Assembly (NCBI GenBank): GCA_017466005.1
Contig: JAFTUZ010000070.1
Coordinates: 1 to 8,035 of the forward strand
Direction of reading: 5' to 3'
Length of the DNA: 8,035 bases
Origin: Clostridia bacterium
GTDB lineage: Bacteria; Bacillota_A; Clostridia; Christensenellales; UBA1242
In this document: positions 569 through 8,035 of the stretch, one piece after another
Numbering within the stretch: position 1 is the first letter of the stretch
How the letters are laid out: each line of letters begins with the position of its first letter
Translations under genes and position numbers: made by a program
Notes under the pieces: generated by a model
The model's input: the letters and a program-made list of their open reading frames with translations, nothing else
Told to the model about the DNA's origin: nothing
Databases searched by the model: none

Positions 569-3049
569 TTAGTTTAACACAATGTAATCAATAATTTTAT
601 CATCTTCATCAAAGATTGCAATGCTTAATGCAACGTTTGCAGTGTTTACTTTATAACCAGCAAACATATTTTCGGCTTCGTTGTATCCATCTAAATCAAA
701 TACATATGTGTTTGTTGTTTCATCATAGAAATATTTAATTCCTGCATAACCTTCAATATTAGTCCAAACTTGGTTTTGTGCTATTGTACCTGTAAAGTTT
801 GTTTTATCTTTAAATACACCAAGTTTTATACCTGTGTCAAAACTTTCAGCATCTGCACTTAAAGTAGCTTCTTTTACAATGTTAAGCAATAATGTACTAT
901 TATCAGCATCTTCTTCACTTTTACCAGCAGCATAAGCACTTAAATATACTTTAAATTTAGCAGCTGTTACTGTGCTTGCACTACCTTTGTTTATAACAAT
1001 ATTACCTGAGGTATCTACAGAATATCCAAGGCTTTCTATTGGTTGCATCGAACCATTACCGTTAATATTTGTGTTGTTTGCAGTATTAAAGTCAAGTTCG
1101 TTAAGACCTGAATTAAATCCATACAACAAACTAGAGAAGTGGTTTTGGTTGTATCTAATTGTTCCGTTGTTTACTGTTCCGTTTTTAACTGTAATTACTT
1201 TTGGTTTATTAGTTTCGTTACAAGAACTGTTACCAATTAACATACCAAATTCTTTTAACGCATATACATCACCATTATTTACACAGTGGTCAAATGTAAG
1301 AGTTAAATCATAATCAGAAGTTCTTGCATATCCACCAATAAATATACCAGCATAACCTTCCATTATATAGTTTGCATTGTTTATACAATCTTTAAATGAT
1401 GCACTTGCAGCAAATACGTGACAAACAAAAGGACTTTCGTTAGTATCATCTGCTGTAAATACTGTGTAATCTACACCTGGCATATTTTCTATAACAACGT
1501 TTTCAAACTCAATACTTTCCCCTCTTGCAATATATACAAAAGAAGTAATACGGTCTGAAAGAGCAACTGTAAGGTTTTTAATTACAAGATTTATAGAAGT
1601 ATTAATCATCATACCAGCGTTGTTAGCAAAAGTAGAAGCTTTAGGATTAATTATTTTATAACCATTTCCATCAATACTACCTGCAAAAGTATCAACACCC
1701 AAATTATCTGCCAATGAAGATAAATCTATATCAGCAATTAATTTAAAGTATTTATAACTTTGTTCATCAGGGCAAGCATTTAACATTGTTATCCATTGTT
1801 CTGCTGTTTCTACCATATATGGATTTGCTTGAGAACCATCACCATATACAGCATTAACAGTTATATCATTCGCTTCTAAAGTATAGTCTTCCCAAACACC
1901 TGCAAAACCATTTTTAACAGGAACAGCAGGTTCGGTTTGAAGTGTACCATCTGTAACATAATAATCTACTTCATCATACATTGCCCCACCAACTTTAAAT
2001 GTTGCAGTGTATTGTGTAATTTCTTTTGTTTTATTACCAAATGTTGCAACTTGGTTTGCTGTTATTCTTTGGATAGATACAGTTTCGTTTTGAGCGTAGT
2101 AGTATTTTTCATAAACATTAACAAGGTCTTTGTTATTTTTAATTTCTACATCAAAAGCACCAGTAGTAAGGTTTGCATAACTAACACCTTGAGGTTCGCA
2201 ACCTATGTAAATGTTATTATCGTTACCAACAAAGTTGTTGTTTTCTATAACAACTTTTCCCGAAATACTACCTGCTGTTTGACCTGCAGCCCAAGCATCG
2301 CTAGGTTTATCGGTAGAACCAAGACGAGTTTTTATAGATATTGCAACATCTTTTACACCTGCTGGTGTTGTAGCACTAAAAACAGAGTTTTTAATTACTA
2401 TGCTGTTTGTTGTAGCACTATAAATGTTAAGGTCTAAAGCATAACCGTTTGTTTCACCAGCCATACCCAAAACACCTGTAAATGTACAACCATCAAAAGT
2501 TATGTTTGCAGGAGCTGTTAAGTAAACACAAGGTTCACCATTAGCACCAGCCTTAAATGTACAATCTATAAATATAAAATCTGCTTTTACTGAAGAAGAA
2601 ATTGGTTCATTAAAAACACAGTTTTCATAAACATAAATTTTAGGTGCATCTGTTTGACTTACGTTATCATCTGCTACCCATTTTGTATTTGGGTTTGTTG
2701 TAAAGGTTTGACCACCAGCAATTGAATCAACAGTTTTTAATGAAACACTACCTGTTGTAATTTTATATAATGCTGTGTCTTTGGGTGTAAATGTCCAGTT
2801 ATATTTATTTACACCAGGTTTTATTGTTTGGTTTTCGTCCCATTCAATAATTCCTTTTATATTACCCTCTACATCTGCCCTTATTGCAGGAAGAGTATCT
2901 ATAACATACTCTTGTCCAACAACTGCAACAACATTAACATCTTTCGCTTCAGGTTTGTTACAGCCGGCAAAAATCATTATAGAAGCAAGTAATATAAAGG
3001 AAAAAACTAAACTAAAAATAGTTTTACTGCTTGTAAGAATTTTACTCAT
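569..3049 (-). CDS. Secreted multidomain lipoprotein: Ig-like, beta-helix, InlB-like and GLUG-like modules
   Basis: A protein of 826 residues, exported and probably lipid-anchored on the outer face of the membrane. Residues 1-30 are a lipoprotein signal peptide: basic start, hydrophobic core, and lipobox FAGC with the lipidated Cys30 (Phe at -3 is slightly atypical). In order I then see an Ig-like module (about 36-107, with the FTPKDTALY signature), a right-handed beta-helix (about 112-310, turns such as YENCVF, FIDCTF, FDGCTF), an InlB B-repeat-like module (about 346-402, 'YTATF...GVWEDYTL...VNAVY'), then GDGSQANPYMVETAEQW opening a GLUG-like second helix (about 403-660, with LIADIDLSS and SIDGNGYKI), and a beta-rich C-terminal part (about 690-826). 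There is no LPxTG motif or catalytic motif. A role in adhesion or glycan binding is inference from module types. This ATG is chosen because AAGGA (3059-3063) lies 9 bases upstream and the signal peptide begins here. The frame stays open to 3232, but that extension runs through the promoter and the upstream gene. Confidence 0.85.
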   Translation of the reverse strand: MSKILTSSKTIFSLVFSFILLASIMIFAGCNKPEAKDVNVVAVVGQEYVIDTLPAIRADVEGNIKGIIEWDENQTIKPGVNKYNWTFTPKDTALYKITTGSVSLKTVDSIAGGQTFTTNPNTKWVADDNVSQTDAPKIYVYENCVFNEPISSSVKADFIFIDCTFKAGANGEPCVYLTAPANITFDGCTFTGVLGMAGETNGYALDLNIYSATTNSIVIKNSVFSATTPAGVKDVAISIKTRLGSTDKPSDAWAAGQTAGSISGKVVIENNNFVGNDNNIYIGCEPQGVSYANLTTGAFDVEIKNNKDLVNVYEKYYYAQNETVSIQRITANQVATFGNKTKEITQYTATFKVGGAMYDEVDYYVTDGTLQTEPAVPVKNGFAGVWEDYTLEANDITVNAVYGDGSQANPYMVETAEQWITMLNACPDEQSYKYFKLIADIDLSSLADNLGVDTFAGSIDGNGYKIINPKASTFANNAGMMINTSINLVIKNLTVALSDRITSFVYIARGESIEFENVVIENMPGVDYTVFTADDTNESPFVCHVFAASASFKDCINNANYIMEGYAGIFIGGYARTSDYDLTLTFDHCVNNGDVYALKEFGMLIGNSSCNETNKPKVITVKNGTVNNGTIRYNQNHFSSLLYGFNSGLNELDFNTANNTNINGNGSMQPIESLGYSVDTSGNIVINKGSASTVTAAKFKVYLSAYAAGKSEEDADNSTLLLNIVKEATLSADAESFDTGIKLGVFKDKTNFTGTIAQNQVWTNIEGYAGIKYFYDETTNTYVFDLDGYNEAENMFAGYKVNTANVALSIAIFDEDDKIIDYIVLN

Positions 3050-3080
3050 GACTCTATTTCCTTTTATTTTTAATATAAGT

Positions 3081-3109
3081 AGTATAGCCCTAATTATAAA
3101 AATTGTCAA
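3081..3109 (-). promoter_or_regulatory. Strong sigma-70/sigma-A promoter of the lipoprotein gene
   Basis: On the minus strand, a consensus TTGACA (3104-3109) is followed by exactly 17 bases and TATACT (3081-3086, 5 of 6 consensus). The predicted start lies near 3074, giving a leader of about 25 bases that carries the AAGGA ribosome site. This is the best-scoring promoter by eye in the window. Together with the terminator just upstream (3161-3184) it makes the lipoprotein gene an independent unit. Confidence 0.85.
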
Positions 3110-3160
3110 TGATATTTGCATTTTAAGTAATAAAAAATAAAATTTTGTAATTATAAAAAT

Positions 3161-3184
3161 AAAAAAGCCAAAATTGGCTTTTTT
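3161..3184 (-). terminator. Intrinsic terminator of the MetRS-like gene
   Basis: The hairpin core is GCCA / TGGC (3167-3170 with 3175-3178), with A6 on one side and T6 on the other. On the minus strand the stem is followed by TTTTTTATTTTTAT. It begins one base after the stop codon of the MetRS-like gene and lies about 50 bases upstream of the lipoprotein promoter. The symmetry would let it act on either strand. Confidence 0.82.
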
Positions 3185-3185
3185 A

Positions 3186-5132
3186 TTAAAGTTGTGTTGG
3201 GTGCTTTTTAAAGAAATCAAATTTAGATTCAAGGAATTTAAATTGAGTAACGTCTGGACAAATTTCTTTAAATGTTTTTTCTATATTATTCCAATCCCAC
3301 AATTTATCTTCTGCTTTCATATATTCTGCAACAAGTTCACTACCACTAGGTGCTATTGGGTGAAGCAATATTACACCTGTTTTAATTATATGAATAGTAT
3401 CGGCTATAAGTTGTTTTCTTGCTTCAATGTCATCATTTTTAGAACGTACTGACCAATCTTGGTTAGCAGCACGGAAAAACTCATCTAATAAAATCATAAC
3501 ATCGCTAAATTTAAATTTTTCAACTTTATCTTGATATGCTTCCACAACATCAACACATTGTTCTTTTGTTTTTTGGCTTGGTTCGTTTTCTGGAATTATG
3601 CCATCTAACATTGTTTGACAACTGTAAATAACCGAACGAACAAGACGGTTAAAAATATTTGTTAACATATTACCATATGCAAGCATAGGGTCGCCAGTAC
3701 CTTCAAATTCTTCTGGGTAAAATGCTTTTGATTTAAAGTTGCAAGCAGTACTGTTGGTGTTTAAACTTAAAAAATAACAACGCAATTGTTCGGGAGTGTA
3801 AAAATCTAACAATTCGTCTGTTGTAGGTGCCCTTGCCTTACCGCTACTACTAGCTTTAATTCCATTTAACAAAATATGTTTAGTAGCAACAAATGTAGGC
3901 ATTTGTAATTTACCATTTTCGGGTTTTTCGTTGTTTTCCTTACCATTAACAGCCATAAATATTGCAGGCTCGGCAAGGCAATAAAAATAAATATTATCTT
4001 CACCTAAAAATTGTACAATGCTAGATTGTTTATCACACCACCAATCTTTCCAATTTAGATTACTATTAATTTCTTCCAAATAAGTTTTGGTAAAAGAAAT
4101 TGGTGCCCATAAAGATTCTGGCCATACATAAAAAGTTAAGCCTTTTGCTTCTGGTTCAATTTCTGGCACCTTTACCCCCCAATCTAAATTACCTGTAATA
4201 CGCAAAGGTGCTAACGATTTATTTGTGGTGTATTTAATGCCTTTAGTTTTTAATATTTCACACACTACATCACGGTCTTTAATATTACCAAACACTAACT
4301 CTACACGATTTTTCTTTTCATCTACTTTAAGTTCAAAAGTATTAGGTAATTCAACACTATCAAGTTCTCCCTTGTTTTCATCTTTTATGAAAATGGCAGG
4401 GCGAACCATATAATCACGCATTTCTTTAAAAATGAATTTATGTGTAACTTCATTATCTTTCCAATAATTAAGTAAATTCATTAAATTTTCTCTGTACTCG
4501 TCTAACGAAAAATAATAGTTTGTTACATCTTTAAAAACAGGTTTGGTGCCCGATAAAGTACTTACTGGGTCTATTAAATCACGAGGGCTATATTGGTGCC
4601 CCAAAGCACACTCATCTGCATAACCAACTTCACTACAACACCCTTCTACCGGGCATTTACCTTCTACCTGCCTACCATTTAAAACAACCCCGTATTTTTC
4701 ATCATAAAACTGTTCGGTTACACGTTTTTGCATCTTACCGTTTTTCAACATTTCTTCAAAGAAATATGCAGAGATTTCTGTATGATTATCAAGTGCTGGT
4801 TGCAAACAAGAAGCATAGAAGTTGTTTAATGAAATATTGTATTTTTTTATTCCTTCTTTTTGTATTTTGTTAAAATTTTCTACATATTCTGCCAACGATA
4901 TATTAATCTCACCTTGCTCACTTAACTTACGGTGTTTTTCGGCAGATACAGAACCAAAACCATCTGTTCCACATACATAAATAACATTCTCACTTCCTAT
5001 GCGGTCTCGCATATATCTAGCATAAAAATCACTTAATATAAACTGACTTATATGCCCCAAATGCAAAGGTTTGTTACCATACGGCATACCTGCCGTAACC
5101 ACCACTCTTTTAGGGAAATTTCTTTCTTTCAT
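3186..5132 (-). CDS. Methionyl-tRNA synthetase homologue (class I tRNA ligase family) with altered active site
   Basis: A cytosolic class I aminoacyl-tRNA synthetase fold of 648 residues, related to MetRS, which charges tRNA with methionine. Seen: HLGH (24-27, the HIGH motif), Asp57 (the usual anchor of the substrate amino group), a zinc-knuckle segment with Cys160, Cys165/166, Cys175 and His179, LRITGNLDWGVKVP (310-323), and an all-helical C-terminal part in the place of the anticodon domain. Odd: KMSKS is replaced by KASSS (426-430), the methionine pocket is changed (WPES at 337-340, Tyr384 and Glu388 for the expected His and Trp), and residues about 243-308 are an insert not found in E. 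coli MetRS. The start is set by GGAG (5138-5141) 5 bases before ATG. A longer in-frame start at 5174 has no ribosome site. Automatic annotation would say metG. I withhold that symbol because canonical methionine activity is doubtful. I recall similar proteins in Clostridia named only as class I tRNA ligases. Confidence 0.85.
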   Translation of the reverse strand: MKERNFPKRVVVTAGMPYGNKPLHLGHISQFILSDFYARYMRDRIGSENVIYVCGTDGFGSVSAEKHRKLSEQGEINISLAEYVENFNKIQKEGIKKYNISLNNFYASCLQPALDNHTEISAYFFEEMLKNGKMQKRVTEQFYDEKYGVVLNGRQVEGKCPVEGCCSEVGYADECALGHQYSPRDLIDPVSTLSGTKPVFKDVTNYYFSLDEYRENLMNLLNYWKDNEVTHKFIFKEMRDYMVRPAIFIKDENKGELDSVELPNTFELKVDEKKNRVELVFGNIKDRDVVCEILKTKGIKYTTNKSLAPLRITGNLDWGVKVPEIEPEAKGLTFYVWPESLWAPISFTKTYLEEINSNLNWKDWWCDKQSSIVQFLGEDNIYFYCLAEPAIFMAVNGKENNEKPENGKLQMPTFVATKHILLNGIKASSSGKARAPTTDELLDFYTPEQLRCYFLSLNTNSTACNFKSKAFYPEEFEGTGDPMLAYGNMLTNIFNRLVRSVIYSCQTMLDGIIPENEPSQKTKEQCVDVVEAYQDKVEKFKFSDVMILLDEFFRAANQDWSVRSKNDDIEARKQLIADTIHIIKTGVILLHPIAPSGSELVAEYMKAEDKLWDWNNIEKTFKEICPDVTQFKFLESKFDFFKKHPTQL

Positions 5133-5411: not shown

Positions 5412-6437
5412 ATGAAAAGATTTACGAAAGTTATTTGTACGCTTGGCCCTGCGTGCAACAATGAAAAAATTTTAGAAACAATGTTTAAAGAGGGTATGAA
5501 TATTGCAAGGCTTAATATGAGCCACGGCACACACGAAACACATCAAGAGCTTATAGACAAAATTGCTCCGTTAAGAAAAAAAGGTTTAAAACTTTTAATA
5601 GATACCAAAGGCCCTGAAATTAGAATAGGAACTTTTAAAAATGGTTTTACCCAACTTGTGGAAGGTGAAAAATTTACTTTTACCAGTAAAGATATAATAG
5701 GCAATGATAAGGAGGTTAGCCTTAAATACAAAAACTTGGTAAACGAAGTAAAAGTTGGTGACCGAATTTACGCAAGCAATGCTTTAATAGTTTTAGAGAT
5801 TTTAAAAGTTACCAAAACAGATATTAAATGTAAAGTTATTTTTGGTGGCAAATTATCTAATAATAAAAGTTTAAATGTTCCTGGTGTTATACCTAGCACA
5901 CCTTATTTATCAGAAGTAGATAAACAAGATATTTTATTTGGTATTAAAAACAAAGCAGATATTTTAGCAATATCATTTGTAAGCAACAAGCAAAACGTTT
6001 TGGATATTAGAAAATTCCTTAAAGAAAACGGTGGCGAAAATATAGAAATAATTTCTAAAATAGAAAACTCTAGTGGTGTTGATAAAATAGACCAAATTAT
6101 AGACGCAAGTGACGGGATTATGGTTGCAAGAGGTGATTTGGGTGTAGAAATTCCTATTGAAAAAATACCACCAGTTCAGAAAAAACTAGTTTCGCTTTGT
6201 AATGTTAAAAAGAAAACCTGTATTGTAGCAACAGAAATGCTGGAAAGTATGACAAACTCTACCCGCCCTACCCGTGCGGAAGTTAACGATGTTGCAACCG
6301 CTGTGTACGAAGAAGCAACAGCAACAATGCTTTCGGGAGAAACAGCATCTGGTATAGACCCTGTGGGTGTTGTAAAAACTATGGTTAGAATTATAAATGA
6401 AACAGAAAAACATATTTACGGTGTTAATGTAAAATAA
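5412..6437 (+). CDS. pyk: Short pyruvate kinase lacking the C-terminal regulatory domain
   Basis: Catalyses the last glycolytic step, phosphoenolpyruvate + ADP to pyruvate + ATP, in the cytosol. Recognisable sites: KVICTLGPA at the N-terminus, ARLNMSHG (32-39, with Arg33, Asn35 and Ser37), IDTKGPEIR (63-71), the B domain (about 73-165), ISKIE with catalytic Lys216 and metal ligand Glu218, VARGDLG with Asp242, ATEML with Thr274, RPTRAE, and MLSGETA (306-312). The family is usually about 470-590 residues. This one has 341 and ends cleanly after the helix following MLSGETA, where the C domain with the effector site should begin. A terminator overlaps its stop codon, so it is not a recent truncation with remnants downstream. 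The loop before MLSGETA is EEATA where DGxDA is usual. There is no ribosome site, and the -10 box abuts the ATG. The start is chosen by family alignment, since pyruvate kinases begin a few residues before the KIVCTLGP motif. Confidence 0.93.
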   Translation: MKRFTKVICTLGPACNNEKILETMFKEGMNIARLNMSHGTHETHQELIDKIAPLRKKGLKLLIDTKGPEIRIGTFKNGFTQLVEGEKFTFTSKDIIGNDKEVSLKYKNLVNEVKVGDRIYASNALIVLEILKVTKTDIKCKVIFGGKLSNNKSLNVPGVIPSTPYLSEVDKQDILFGIKNKADILAISFVSNKQNVLDIRKFLKENGGENIEIISKIENSSGVDKIDQIIDASDGIMVARGDLGVEIPIEKIPPVQKKLVSLCNVKKKTCIVATEMLESMTNSTRPTRAEVNDVATAVYEEATATMLSGETASGIDPVGVVKTMVRIINETEKHIYGVNVK

Positions 6438-6468: not shown

Positions 6469-8035
6469 TTATGCTGTAGGTTGTCCATTATTTGAAGTTG
6501 GTTGTTGACTACTTGGAACTAAACAGTTTTCATCAATCATTTCGCCCTCACCTGTACCAGAATCATTAATATCTAACAACTCTTTTAAAACAGCTTTTCT
6601 TTTCTTTAATATATGTTTTGAAGATTCGTAATTATAGTAAAATTTTTCTACTGCTGTACCATTTTCTTTTAATTTCCATGGTTTTATTACAGGTTTTAAT
6701 TTAATGTTTAAAGCATCTTGAACAAAAGGAATAAATCCACCTACTCTTATTTCATCAACAACTTTACCCTTTTTATCTTTAACATCTTTATAAATATCTA
6801 CATTTAAAACTTTGTTAAATCTTTGAATTGTAGAAATAAATTCATTTAAAGAACCTTCTTTTAACAACTCTCTAGCATATGCTTTTTCTTCTGGAGTTGC
6901 CAAATAAGCATTTTCAATTTTTGCTTCTTCAAATTTCTTATCAAAGAACAAACCTGTCATAGAAGTTAAATCTAAAATAGAACCACTAGTTTTATAAGTT
7001 TCCAAGAAATAGTTTACAAATTTAATTGCATACGCCCTATCATACAACATTCCACCAAACTCACCAAATGCTTGCACCATATCTACACGTTTTTTATTAT
7101 CGTATCCTAAATCCCAAGCATTTTTCATAGAAATTAATTTATTGTTTTGTTGTGGGTCACGATAATTCATTTTTTTCCTTTGGTCAATAAGGTCAACATA
7201 CCATTCCAAACGTTGGTGCGGTTTTGAGTTATCCATAACATTTAAATCACTTTTCAAAAATGCAGAAGGGTCGTGTTTTGCAATTAAGTTTAAAATTTGA
7301 ACTTCTTCATCAATAATTTGGTCCATTGTTTTAAAATCTGTATTTTCTGTATATTTTTGCAATTCGTTAATTAATGTTTTAATACTCTCTTCACTTGGCA
7401 AAAACATAAGTTTTTCTAACGAATATGCGTTACCAAAATTATATAAACGTTCGTAATCATAAAGCAAACTTTCTTTTGCAAATTTTGGGTTACCAATCAA
7501 GCAATAACTTCTAATATTATTTTTACCTATAAACGCTTGGTTGTTAAGTGTTAATTCTTCTAAAACACTACCATCTGCATTTAATAATTCCACAATATTA
7601 CAAGCATTTTTTATTTGGTCTAAATCCAATCTTATATCATTTAATGCTTTTTGTAAGTATTTACGGTAAGTTTCATTATTAATTTTGTTTGAAAGCCACA
7701 AATCACAAAAATCAGCAGATGCTATTAAATACAAATATTCTTTATCATCAACTCTTTTTCTTCTTAAACTTAAAGATTCGTGTGTTTTATTTCTTGCAAC
7801 AGTAAAACATTGTTTAAATGTTTCGTAATTAATATCGCCATCTTTCAATTCCACTTGTGCAATTGGTATTTCTGATAAAGATTTTAATTCACCATCAGGA
7901 TTAACAAACATAGTGTGTTTTGCATCTAACACACCTTTTTCTGATACTTTTTTAGATTTTTGTACGTTTTTTCTAAAACCACCAGTTGCAATACTATAAT
8001 CTAAAAATGAGTTATATGTGGCTAATTTTTTATAA
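6469..8035 (-). CDS. Protein of unknown function, 5' end beyond the window (521 residues visible)
   Basis: I do not recognise the family. The frame is open for 521 codons from the right edge to TAA at 6469-6471. No ATG occurs in the first 34 visible codons, so the true start is outside the window. A GTG at 7930-7932 has no properly spaced ribosome site and is preceded by a basic in-frame stretch (GGFRKNVQKSKKVSEKG). The visible protein looks soluble: no signal peptide can be judged, no membrane segment is seen, and it has many charged and aromatic residues (for example a segment around FGEFGGMLYDRAYAIKFV). It has a Lys/Arg-rich helix near KHILKKRKAVLKELLDI. The C-terminal 30 or so residues are low-complexity and rich in Gly, Ser, Gln, Pro, Thr and Asn, probably a disordered tail. 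Codon use and base composition match the neighbours. It faces pyruvate kinase tail to tail, so context gives no functional hint. Confidence 0.8.
   Translation of the reverse strand, partial: YKKLATYNSFLDYSIATGGFRKNVQKSKKVSEKGVLDAKHTMFVNPDGELKSLSEIPIAQVELKDGDINYETFKQCFTVARNKTHESLSLRRKRVDDKEYLYLIASADFCDLWLSNKINNETYRKYLQKALNDIRLDLDQIKNACNIVELLNADGSVLEELTLNNQAFIGKNNIRSYCLIGNPKFAKESLLYDYERLYNFGNAYSLEKLMFLPSEESIKTLINELQKYTENTDFKTMDQIIDEEVQILNLIAKHDPSAFLKSDLNVMDNSKPHQRLEWYVDLIDQRKKMNYRDPQQNNKLISMKNAWDLGYDNKKRVDMVQAFGEFGGMLYDRAYAIKFVNYFLETYKTSGSILDLTSMTGLFFDKKFEEAKIENAYLATPEEKAYARELLKEGSLNEFISTIQRFNKVLNVDIYKDVKDKKGKVVDEIRVGGFIPFVQDALNIKLKPVIKPWKLKENGTAVEKFYYNYESSKHILKKRKAVLKELLDINDSGTGEGEMIDENCLVPSSQQPTSNNGQPTA

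Follow-up and report, generated by a model that had tools for sequence, protein, structure and literature searches.

The locus raises the question of what a methionyl-tRNA synthetase (MetRS) homologue does once its methionine pocket has been rebuilt. In the window, by which we mean the whole stretch of 8,035 nucleotides analysed here, such a gene lies on the minus strand, with a reading frame that starts at an ATG at 5132, preceded by GGAG, and stays open to a stop at 3186. A preliminary description had claimed an intact frame, which was borne out; the range that it gave, 3836-5060, spans roughly the stretch from HIGH to KMSKS and misses both ends of the gene. We propose that the encoded MetRS-like protein is very probably a glutaminyl-tRNA synthetase (GlnRS) that evolved from MetRS (class Ia), and not the GluRS-derived class Ib GlnRS. 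Glutamine is the amino acid that it would most likely load, judging from an RNA switch that precedes the gene in some members of the family and from the genes that it appears to replace. The specific substrates suggested here, tRNA-Gln and glutamine, go beyond what the preliminary description had proposed.

The window also holds a pyruvate kinase gene of 341 aa (5412-6437, plus strand) that encodes little beyond the barrel domain, with a match that ends near position 340 of the longer models (470-590 positions). A large ORF at 569-3232 (minus strand) shows a lipoprotein-like signal by eye and no Pfam match, and an ORF at 6469-8034 (minus strand), of at least 521 aa, runs off the window and matched no Pfam or NCBIfam model.

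Homology of the 648-aa protein to MetRS is clear: it matches Pfam tRNA-synt_1g (E 2.3e-70), has the class Ia MetRS fold with a HIGH motif, and its top matches, in fold as well as in sequence, are MetRS. A search against MetRS families, as suggested in the preliminary description, nevertheless placed it far below the curated MetRS cut-offs, with 215.9 against 336.35 bits for TIGR00398 and 253.4 against 587 bits for NF001100. In the NCBIfam search at E 0.001 the protein did not match TIGR00440, the class Ib GlnS family. Such best matches would also be given by a divergent second methionyl-tRNA synthetase, a reading against which these scores already speak.

Related proteins are numerous. At E 0.001, 5988 of 7997 scored candidates matched, canonical MetRS possibly among them, and the best 120 of these 5988 matches are 44-100% identical to the query and cover 70-100% of it. 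Among the matches listed, NCBI names are mostly "class I tRNA ligase family protein" with a few "methionine--tRNA ligase", and the JGI name is "methionyl-tRNA synthetase". Scanning genome contigs with the single protein as query returned no loci, and a 41-row family alignment returned the best 80 of 589 loci. These 80 come mostly from Clostridia MAGs and isolates (Herbinix, Anaerocolumna), with some labelled Spirochaetales and one Erysipelotrichaceae. The rebuilt MetRS-like protein is present in many gut bacteria. Conservation was read from 119 database rows (the top 120 of the 5988 matches minus one, dropped for its length), which include the window's own protein and form an unbiased set; in a 217-sequence set, the locus-derived rows had been chosen by a WPES-like pattern.

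Table 1. Positions of the MetRS-like gene and of the elements of its product in the window.
Feature	Position	Strand	Basis or remark
MetRS-like protein gene, complete	3186..5132	minus	648 aa; proposed MetRS-derived glutaminyl-tRNA synthetase
HLGH, class I HIGH motif, residues 24-27	5052..5063	minus	sequence; H24 and H27 invariant in 41-row family alignment
Asp57, equivalent of E. coli Asp52	4962..4964	minus	alignments
Putative Zn-knuckle equivalent, C160/C165/C175/H179 (CCCH replacing CCCC)	4596..4655	minus	conservation
Insertion of ~65-85 residues (about 246-310)	4203..4397	minus	no counterpart in canonical MetRS compared
WPESLWAP, residues 337-344, rebuilt first pocket wall	4101..4124	minus	identical in 119 database rows except one A343S
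N380 to E388, rebuilt second pocket wall (I297>N380, H301>Y384, W305>E/Q388)	3969..3995	minus	profile alignment and 119 rows
KASSS, residues 426-430, altered KMSKS loop	3843..3857	minus	K426 in 119/119, S429 in 118/119 rows
Helical anticodon-binding domain	3297..3794	minus	Pfam Anticodon_1 and helices in structure model
Family-specific C-terminal tail DFFKKHPTQL	3189..3218	minus	D639, F640, F641, H644, Q647 invariant in 41-row family alignment

Much of the MetRS architecture is kept (Table 1). HLGH and Asp57 are retained, as had been claimed; Asp57, which is found in 118 of the 119 database rows and falls in a gap in the remaining one, aligns with E. coli Asp52, which we take to bind the amino group of the substrate. 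The four residues of the putative Zn knuckle are invariant in the 41-row family alignment and in the 217 sequences, the latter read with the pattern-based choice of rows in mind. The insertion is predicted by the structure model to be a small alpha/beta unit of strands and helices. Pfam Anticodon_1 covers residues 528-602 with 24.7 bits, slightly below its cut-off of 25.1. In the MAFFT alignment, which is less sure in this domain, E. coli N391 and R395 align with N495 and R499, neither of which varies in the 119 rows, and a shorter stretch replaces the PW461 element.

The amino-acid pocket is where the protein departs from MetRS. In a profile-profile alignment against 10 canonical MetRS (probability 100) the pocket is ungapped, and the E. 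coli residues correspond as W253>W337, A256>S340, P257>L341, Y260>P344, I297>N380, H301>Y384, W305>E388 and K335>S429, so that of the methionine pocket and KMSKS only W253, the first lysine and the serines are retained. A MAFFT multiple alignment with E. coli MetRS instead opened a 3-residue gap in the pocket and paired LDAPIGY with LWAPISF, a version that would leave fewer pocket residues changed. This pairing was set aside in favour of the ungapped version, because related genomes have canonical MetRS in which WVEAVWGY or WIEAVWGY lines up with WPESLWAP residue for residue. The ungapped alignment also reproduces the pocket that had been aligned by hand in the preliminary description (W337-P344, Tyr384, Glu388), in which the changes listed were correct and I297>N380 was overlooked.

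The rebuilt pocket is strongly conserved. W337-P338-E339-S340-L341-W342, P344, N380, Y384, K426 and S430 never vary in the 119 database rows, and position 388 is E in 89 rows and Q in 30. Since the substitutions are fixed across these rows, the altered pattern is not due to chance, and a greasy methionine pocket has given way to a conserved polar one; decay of a MetRS copy is rejected for the same reason. The KMSKS motif had been described as lost, which holds for its second lysine, and the first lysine is retained. Human TyrRS is active with a KMSSS loop, so loss of the second lysine need not impair activation. A loss of function via KASSS was not accepted, given the retained first lysine and the existence of active synthetases with single-lysine loops. 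With residues fixed among relatives and only general names in the sources, the earlier view of a conserved family without an assigned function is supported.

T-box leaders point to the amino acid that the protein may load. Of 101 distinct loci with 350 bp or more of upstream sequence, 19 have a T-box ahead of the MetRS-like gene (counted after removal of repeats, as four loci of the 30 class-sample carriers described below are already among the first 80, and L041 matches L042). The Rfam RF00230 gathering score was passed by 10/10 leaders in a first run and 4/5 in a second; the leader of L098 reached 76.4 bits against a gathering score of 93. All 19 distinct leaders carry a glutamine specifier, with synonymous variation between CAA in 15 (L010, L019, L021, L023, L025, L031, L036, L038, L049, L062, L068, L069, L098, L112 and L118) and CAG in four (L013, L027, L041, whose leader is identical in L042 and L110, and L099). 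Of these loci, L036 belongs to Anaerocolumna aminovalerica and L025 to Herbinix hemicellulosilytica. A further T-box, in L012, lies in a leader that is cut off. L038 and L049 are two contigs of one Herbinix MAG (JAQSYO01), each with a MetRS-like gene and its own Gln T-box, which reflects either two copies or a mixed bin.

The specifier register, defined in Rfam as the three bases before the base that precedes the closing stem, was read in Rfam alignments for 14 of the 19 leaders, and by the same motif for L010, L019, L025, L027 and L038. Since none of 20 canonical glnS leaders has a T-box, leaders of LeuRS, ValRS and MetRS genes served as a control: five LeuRS leaders gave CUC, two ValRS leaders GUA and three canonical MetRS leaders AUG. 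These are 10 of the 14 leaders found, L152 (metG) and three of IleRS-sized genes being left out; the LeuRS and ValRS genes were identified by NCBIfam cut-offs and metG by TIGR00398. The leader base opposite the tRNA discriminator is C or T; a C would pair with G73 of tRNA-Gln and a T would wobble, which is consistent, if weakly, with a Gln T-box. Expression of the MetRS-like gene is predicted to be tied to uncharged tRNA-Gln in that part of the family.

The same leaders bear on the second-MetRS reading. In three genomes (G021, G017 and G011) the metG leader reads AUG and the leader of the MetRS-like gene reads CAA. Moreover, canonical metG is present in 24/24 carriers tested, so that methionine charging by the MetRS-like protein is unneeded, and every row examined shows the methionine-pocket residues replaced. 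Despite its best matches being MetRS, we thus consider it extremely unlikely that the protein is a second methionyl-tRNA synthetase. The fixed altered residues and the universal metG of these carriers also uphold the earlier proposal of a different substrate or a non-canonical role, not decay.

We then compared the MetRS-like protein with the known routes to Gln-tRNA-Gln in two genome samples: 294 genomes of the class of carrier G022, taken as Clostridia (minimum completeness of 97 requested), and 148 genomes of its family, taken as the Ruminococcus-containing one (93 requested). The samples overlap by 8 genomes, among them the carriers G022 and G289. In addition, 24 genomes from the 80 loci, chosen for long contigs and variety, were searched for GatB, GlnRS and metG. 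Many of the genomes are drafts, and single gene absences can therefore be gaps. In the class sample, the MetRS-like protein occurs in 30 genomes, GatB in 218 and GlnRS in 189; GlnRS is found in 1/30 carriers versus 188/264 non-carriers (Fisher p 1.4e-13, kinship ignored). The 76 class genomes without a GatB match comprise 66 with GlnRS only, 1 with both GlnRS and the MetRS-like protein, 7 with the MetRS-like protein only and 2 with neither. The 37 family genomes without GatB divide into 25 with GlnRS and 12 with the MetRS-like protein, none having both and none neither (Fisher p 5.4e-10, kinship ignored). In the 111 family genomes with GatB, the MetRS-like protein alone occurs in 25, GlnRS alone in 13 and neither in 73. 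Genomes lacking both GlnRS and GatB thus have the MetRS-like protein in 12/12 cases in the family and 7/9 in the class.

Several observations set limits on the GlnRS reading. A T-box accompanies only about one fifth of the loci, and GatB is present in most carriers (22/30 in the class sample, 25/37 in the family sample and 20/24 of the locus-chosen genomes). Canonical GlnRS also occurs beside the MetRS-like protein in the one class-sample carrier and, over cut-off, in 4/24 locus-chosen genomes (G005, G006, G017 and G021), each of which has a Gln T-box on the MetRS-like gene.

The seven class-sample carriers without GatB and GlnRS have no GatA, GatB or GlnRS over cut-off, and merely weak GluRS-type matches to the GlnRS profile at E 0.001. 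GatA was searched in 15 genomes; it was over cut-off in none of these seven, G012-G014, G153, G077 and G259, and was found in both GatB-bearing controls, G205 and G160. One of the seven carriers, G248, is assembled as a single contig of 3,122,901 bases and has a CAA T-box on the MetRS-like gene and a tRNA-Gln(UUG) gene; GatA, GatB and GlnRS are not found over cut-off there, where two sub-cut-off amidases are present. In two other genomes of the class sample, G077 and G259, none of GatA, GatB, canonical GlnRS and the MetRS-like protein was found at the thresholds used. On a 38-protein tree (the 30 class carriers, 7 chosen others and the window) absence of GatB maps to 6-7 changes, so that the pattern of GatB loss is not one event. 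We think it quite likely that GlnRS was invented twice in bacteria, and that the MetRS-derived one, whether or not GatCAB is also present, now serves Clostridia and some Spirochaetales-labelled MAGs, where it has repeatedly permitted the loss of GatCAB.

These genomes also help to judge whether the protein could be a tRNA-Gln-specific GluRS, similar to GluRS2, that loads Glu onto tRNA-Gln for later amidation by GatCAB or another enzyme. The frequent presence of GatB in carriers would suit such an enzyme, and the T-box would read tRNA-Gln in either case. However, 21 distinct carriers (18 in the two samples, 3 locus-chosen) lack both GatB and canonical GlnRS, and GatA was over cut-off in none of the 10 of these that were searched for it, which deprives them of the known route for correcting Glu-tRNA-Gln. 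In addition, E/Q388, N380 and Y384, together with the lack of any gained Arg or Lys at the pocket positions inspected in the alignment, fit an amide better than a carboxylate. We regard this alternative as very unlikely, and direct glutamine loading as the better account.

A GluRS gene does recur beside the MetRS-like gene: it lies directly upstream, on the same strand and 6-205 bases off, in 20/105 distinct loci, and is the sole neighbour found at the same place in over 8 loci, the neighbourhoods otherwise varying widely. The upstream GluRS is up to 558 aa long; in L026, L029, L109 and others it is about 545-558 aa, exceeds the 470-position gltX_bact model and forms an apparent operon with the MetRS-like gene. 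Two examples scored 288.0 (just under) and 295.4 bits (over) against the TIGR00464 cut-off of 289.95. The genomes with this arrangement that were searched with the GlnRS profile each gave a single GluRS-type match, and the adjacent GluRS therefore presumably serves tRNA-Glu; the profile may have overlooked a second GluRS there.

Genes for tRNA-Gln could be read in 21/24 carrier genomes, with UUG and/or CUG anticodons, U1-A72 and mostly G73. An A73 discriminator was seen in L167 (G022), L175 (G012) and L155 (G014; acceptor end read by eye), all from genomes without GatB and GlnRS. The canonical GlnRS of E. coli uses G73; an A73 would agree with a different enzyme recognising these tRNAs.

It is also conceivable that the protein has a non-translational role in which, like the MetRS-like hydrazine synthetases, it activates some amino acid to make a metabolite, glutamine status being no more than the signal that controls it. 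A bacterial MetRS paralogue of this kind is known; it is reported always to stand beside canonical MetRS, and its family to depend on a cupin and on a lysine monooxygenase (PMC2922099). In the hydrazine synthetases PyrN and Spb40, the MetRS-like domain is a bacterial MetRS paralogue retargeted to another amino acid, in the case of PyrN to L-Glu; the partners of PyrN are a cupin and N6-hydroxylysine, and no tRNA takes part (PMC8664883). PyrN (9l8v) is a Foldseek match at rank 21 and is not in the 50-entry VIA list. The varied neighbourhoods of the MetRS-like family would agree with such a role. Nevertheless, Pfam detected no cupin in the MetRS-like protein, in the window's four neighbours or in 20 neighbours from 7 loci, and no lysine N6-monooxygenase was found among the same neighbours; a hydrazine synthetase identity was set aside for lack of these partners among the neighbours scanned. 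Moreover, the recurrent neighbour is GluRS, and genome-by-genome replacement of GlnRS is not expected of a metabolite enzyme. A role outside translation therefore appears very unlikely, and we retain that in aminoacylation with glutamine.

The window's own copy belongs to a clade with G001 (its nearest relative), G003 and G004 that branches apart from the remaining rows of the 38-protein tree. GatB is present in these three genomes and GlnRS over cut-off in none of them; no T-box was found in the window or in its closest relatives, L001-L007. As this clade is without a T-box and has retained GatB, the function proposed for the window's copy rests on homology and an identical pocket. Both routes to Gln-tRNA-Gln may coexist in these genomes.

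From the pocket and the domain layout, a course of the reaction can be proposed. ATP and glutamine would be bound as ATP and methionine are in MetRS, with the side-chain amide of glutamine read by the polar N380, Y384 and E/Q388 that replace I297, H301 and W305. Glutamine would be activated to Gln-AMP by the single-lysine KASSS loop, and the helical domain would read the UUG/CUG anticodon, so that glutamine could be passed to tRNA-Gln. In species with a T-box, uncharged tRNA-Gln would raise synthesis of the enzyme.

Compared with MetRS (E. coli MetG, P. abyssi 1rqg), the protein differs in the pocket, KASSS, the ~246-310 insertion and the C-terminal tail, its scores lie below the MetRS cut-offs, and its T-box, where present, reads Gln and not Met. 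It would share its reaction with canonical GlnS (class Ib, GluRS-derived, TIGR00440), and the two replace each other among genomes; in contrast, it is of another subclass and ancestry, and the canonical glnS leaders are without a T-box (0/20). With GatCAB and a non-discriminating GluRS it would share the product, by a route without the amidation step, and unlike that system it is present in genomes where neither GatA nor GatB is over cut-off. A 2020 review gives bacterial GlnRS a eukaryotic origin and spread by transfer, and names amidotransferase routes for bacteria without GlnRS (PMC7373986). We found no report of a MetRS-derived GlnRS in the open-licence PMC literature, an absence that is not proof of novelty.

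If the proposed function is correct, GlnRS would have a second origin besides the GluRS-derived enzyme, and the protein would be for glutamine the counterpart of what class I LysRS is for lysine. Hundreds or more proteins (589 loci) would then carry a wrong name, "methionyl-tRNA synthetase" or "class I tRNA ligase". For genetic-code work the family would be of use as a natural case of a MetRS pocket remodelled to take a polar amino acid, and it would explain how glutamine codons are decoded in Clostridia without GlnRS and GatCAB.
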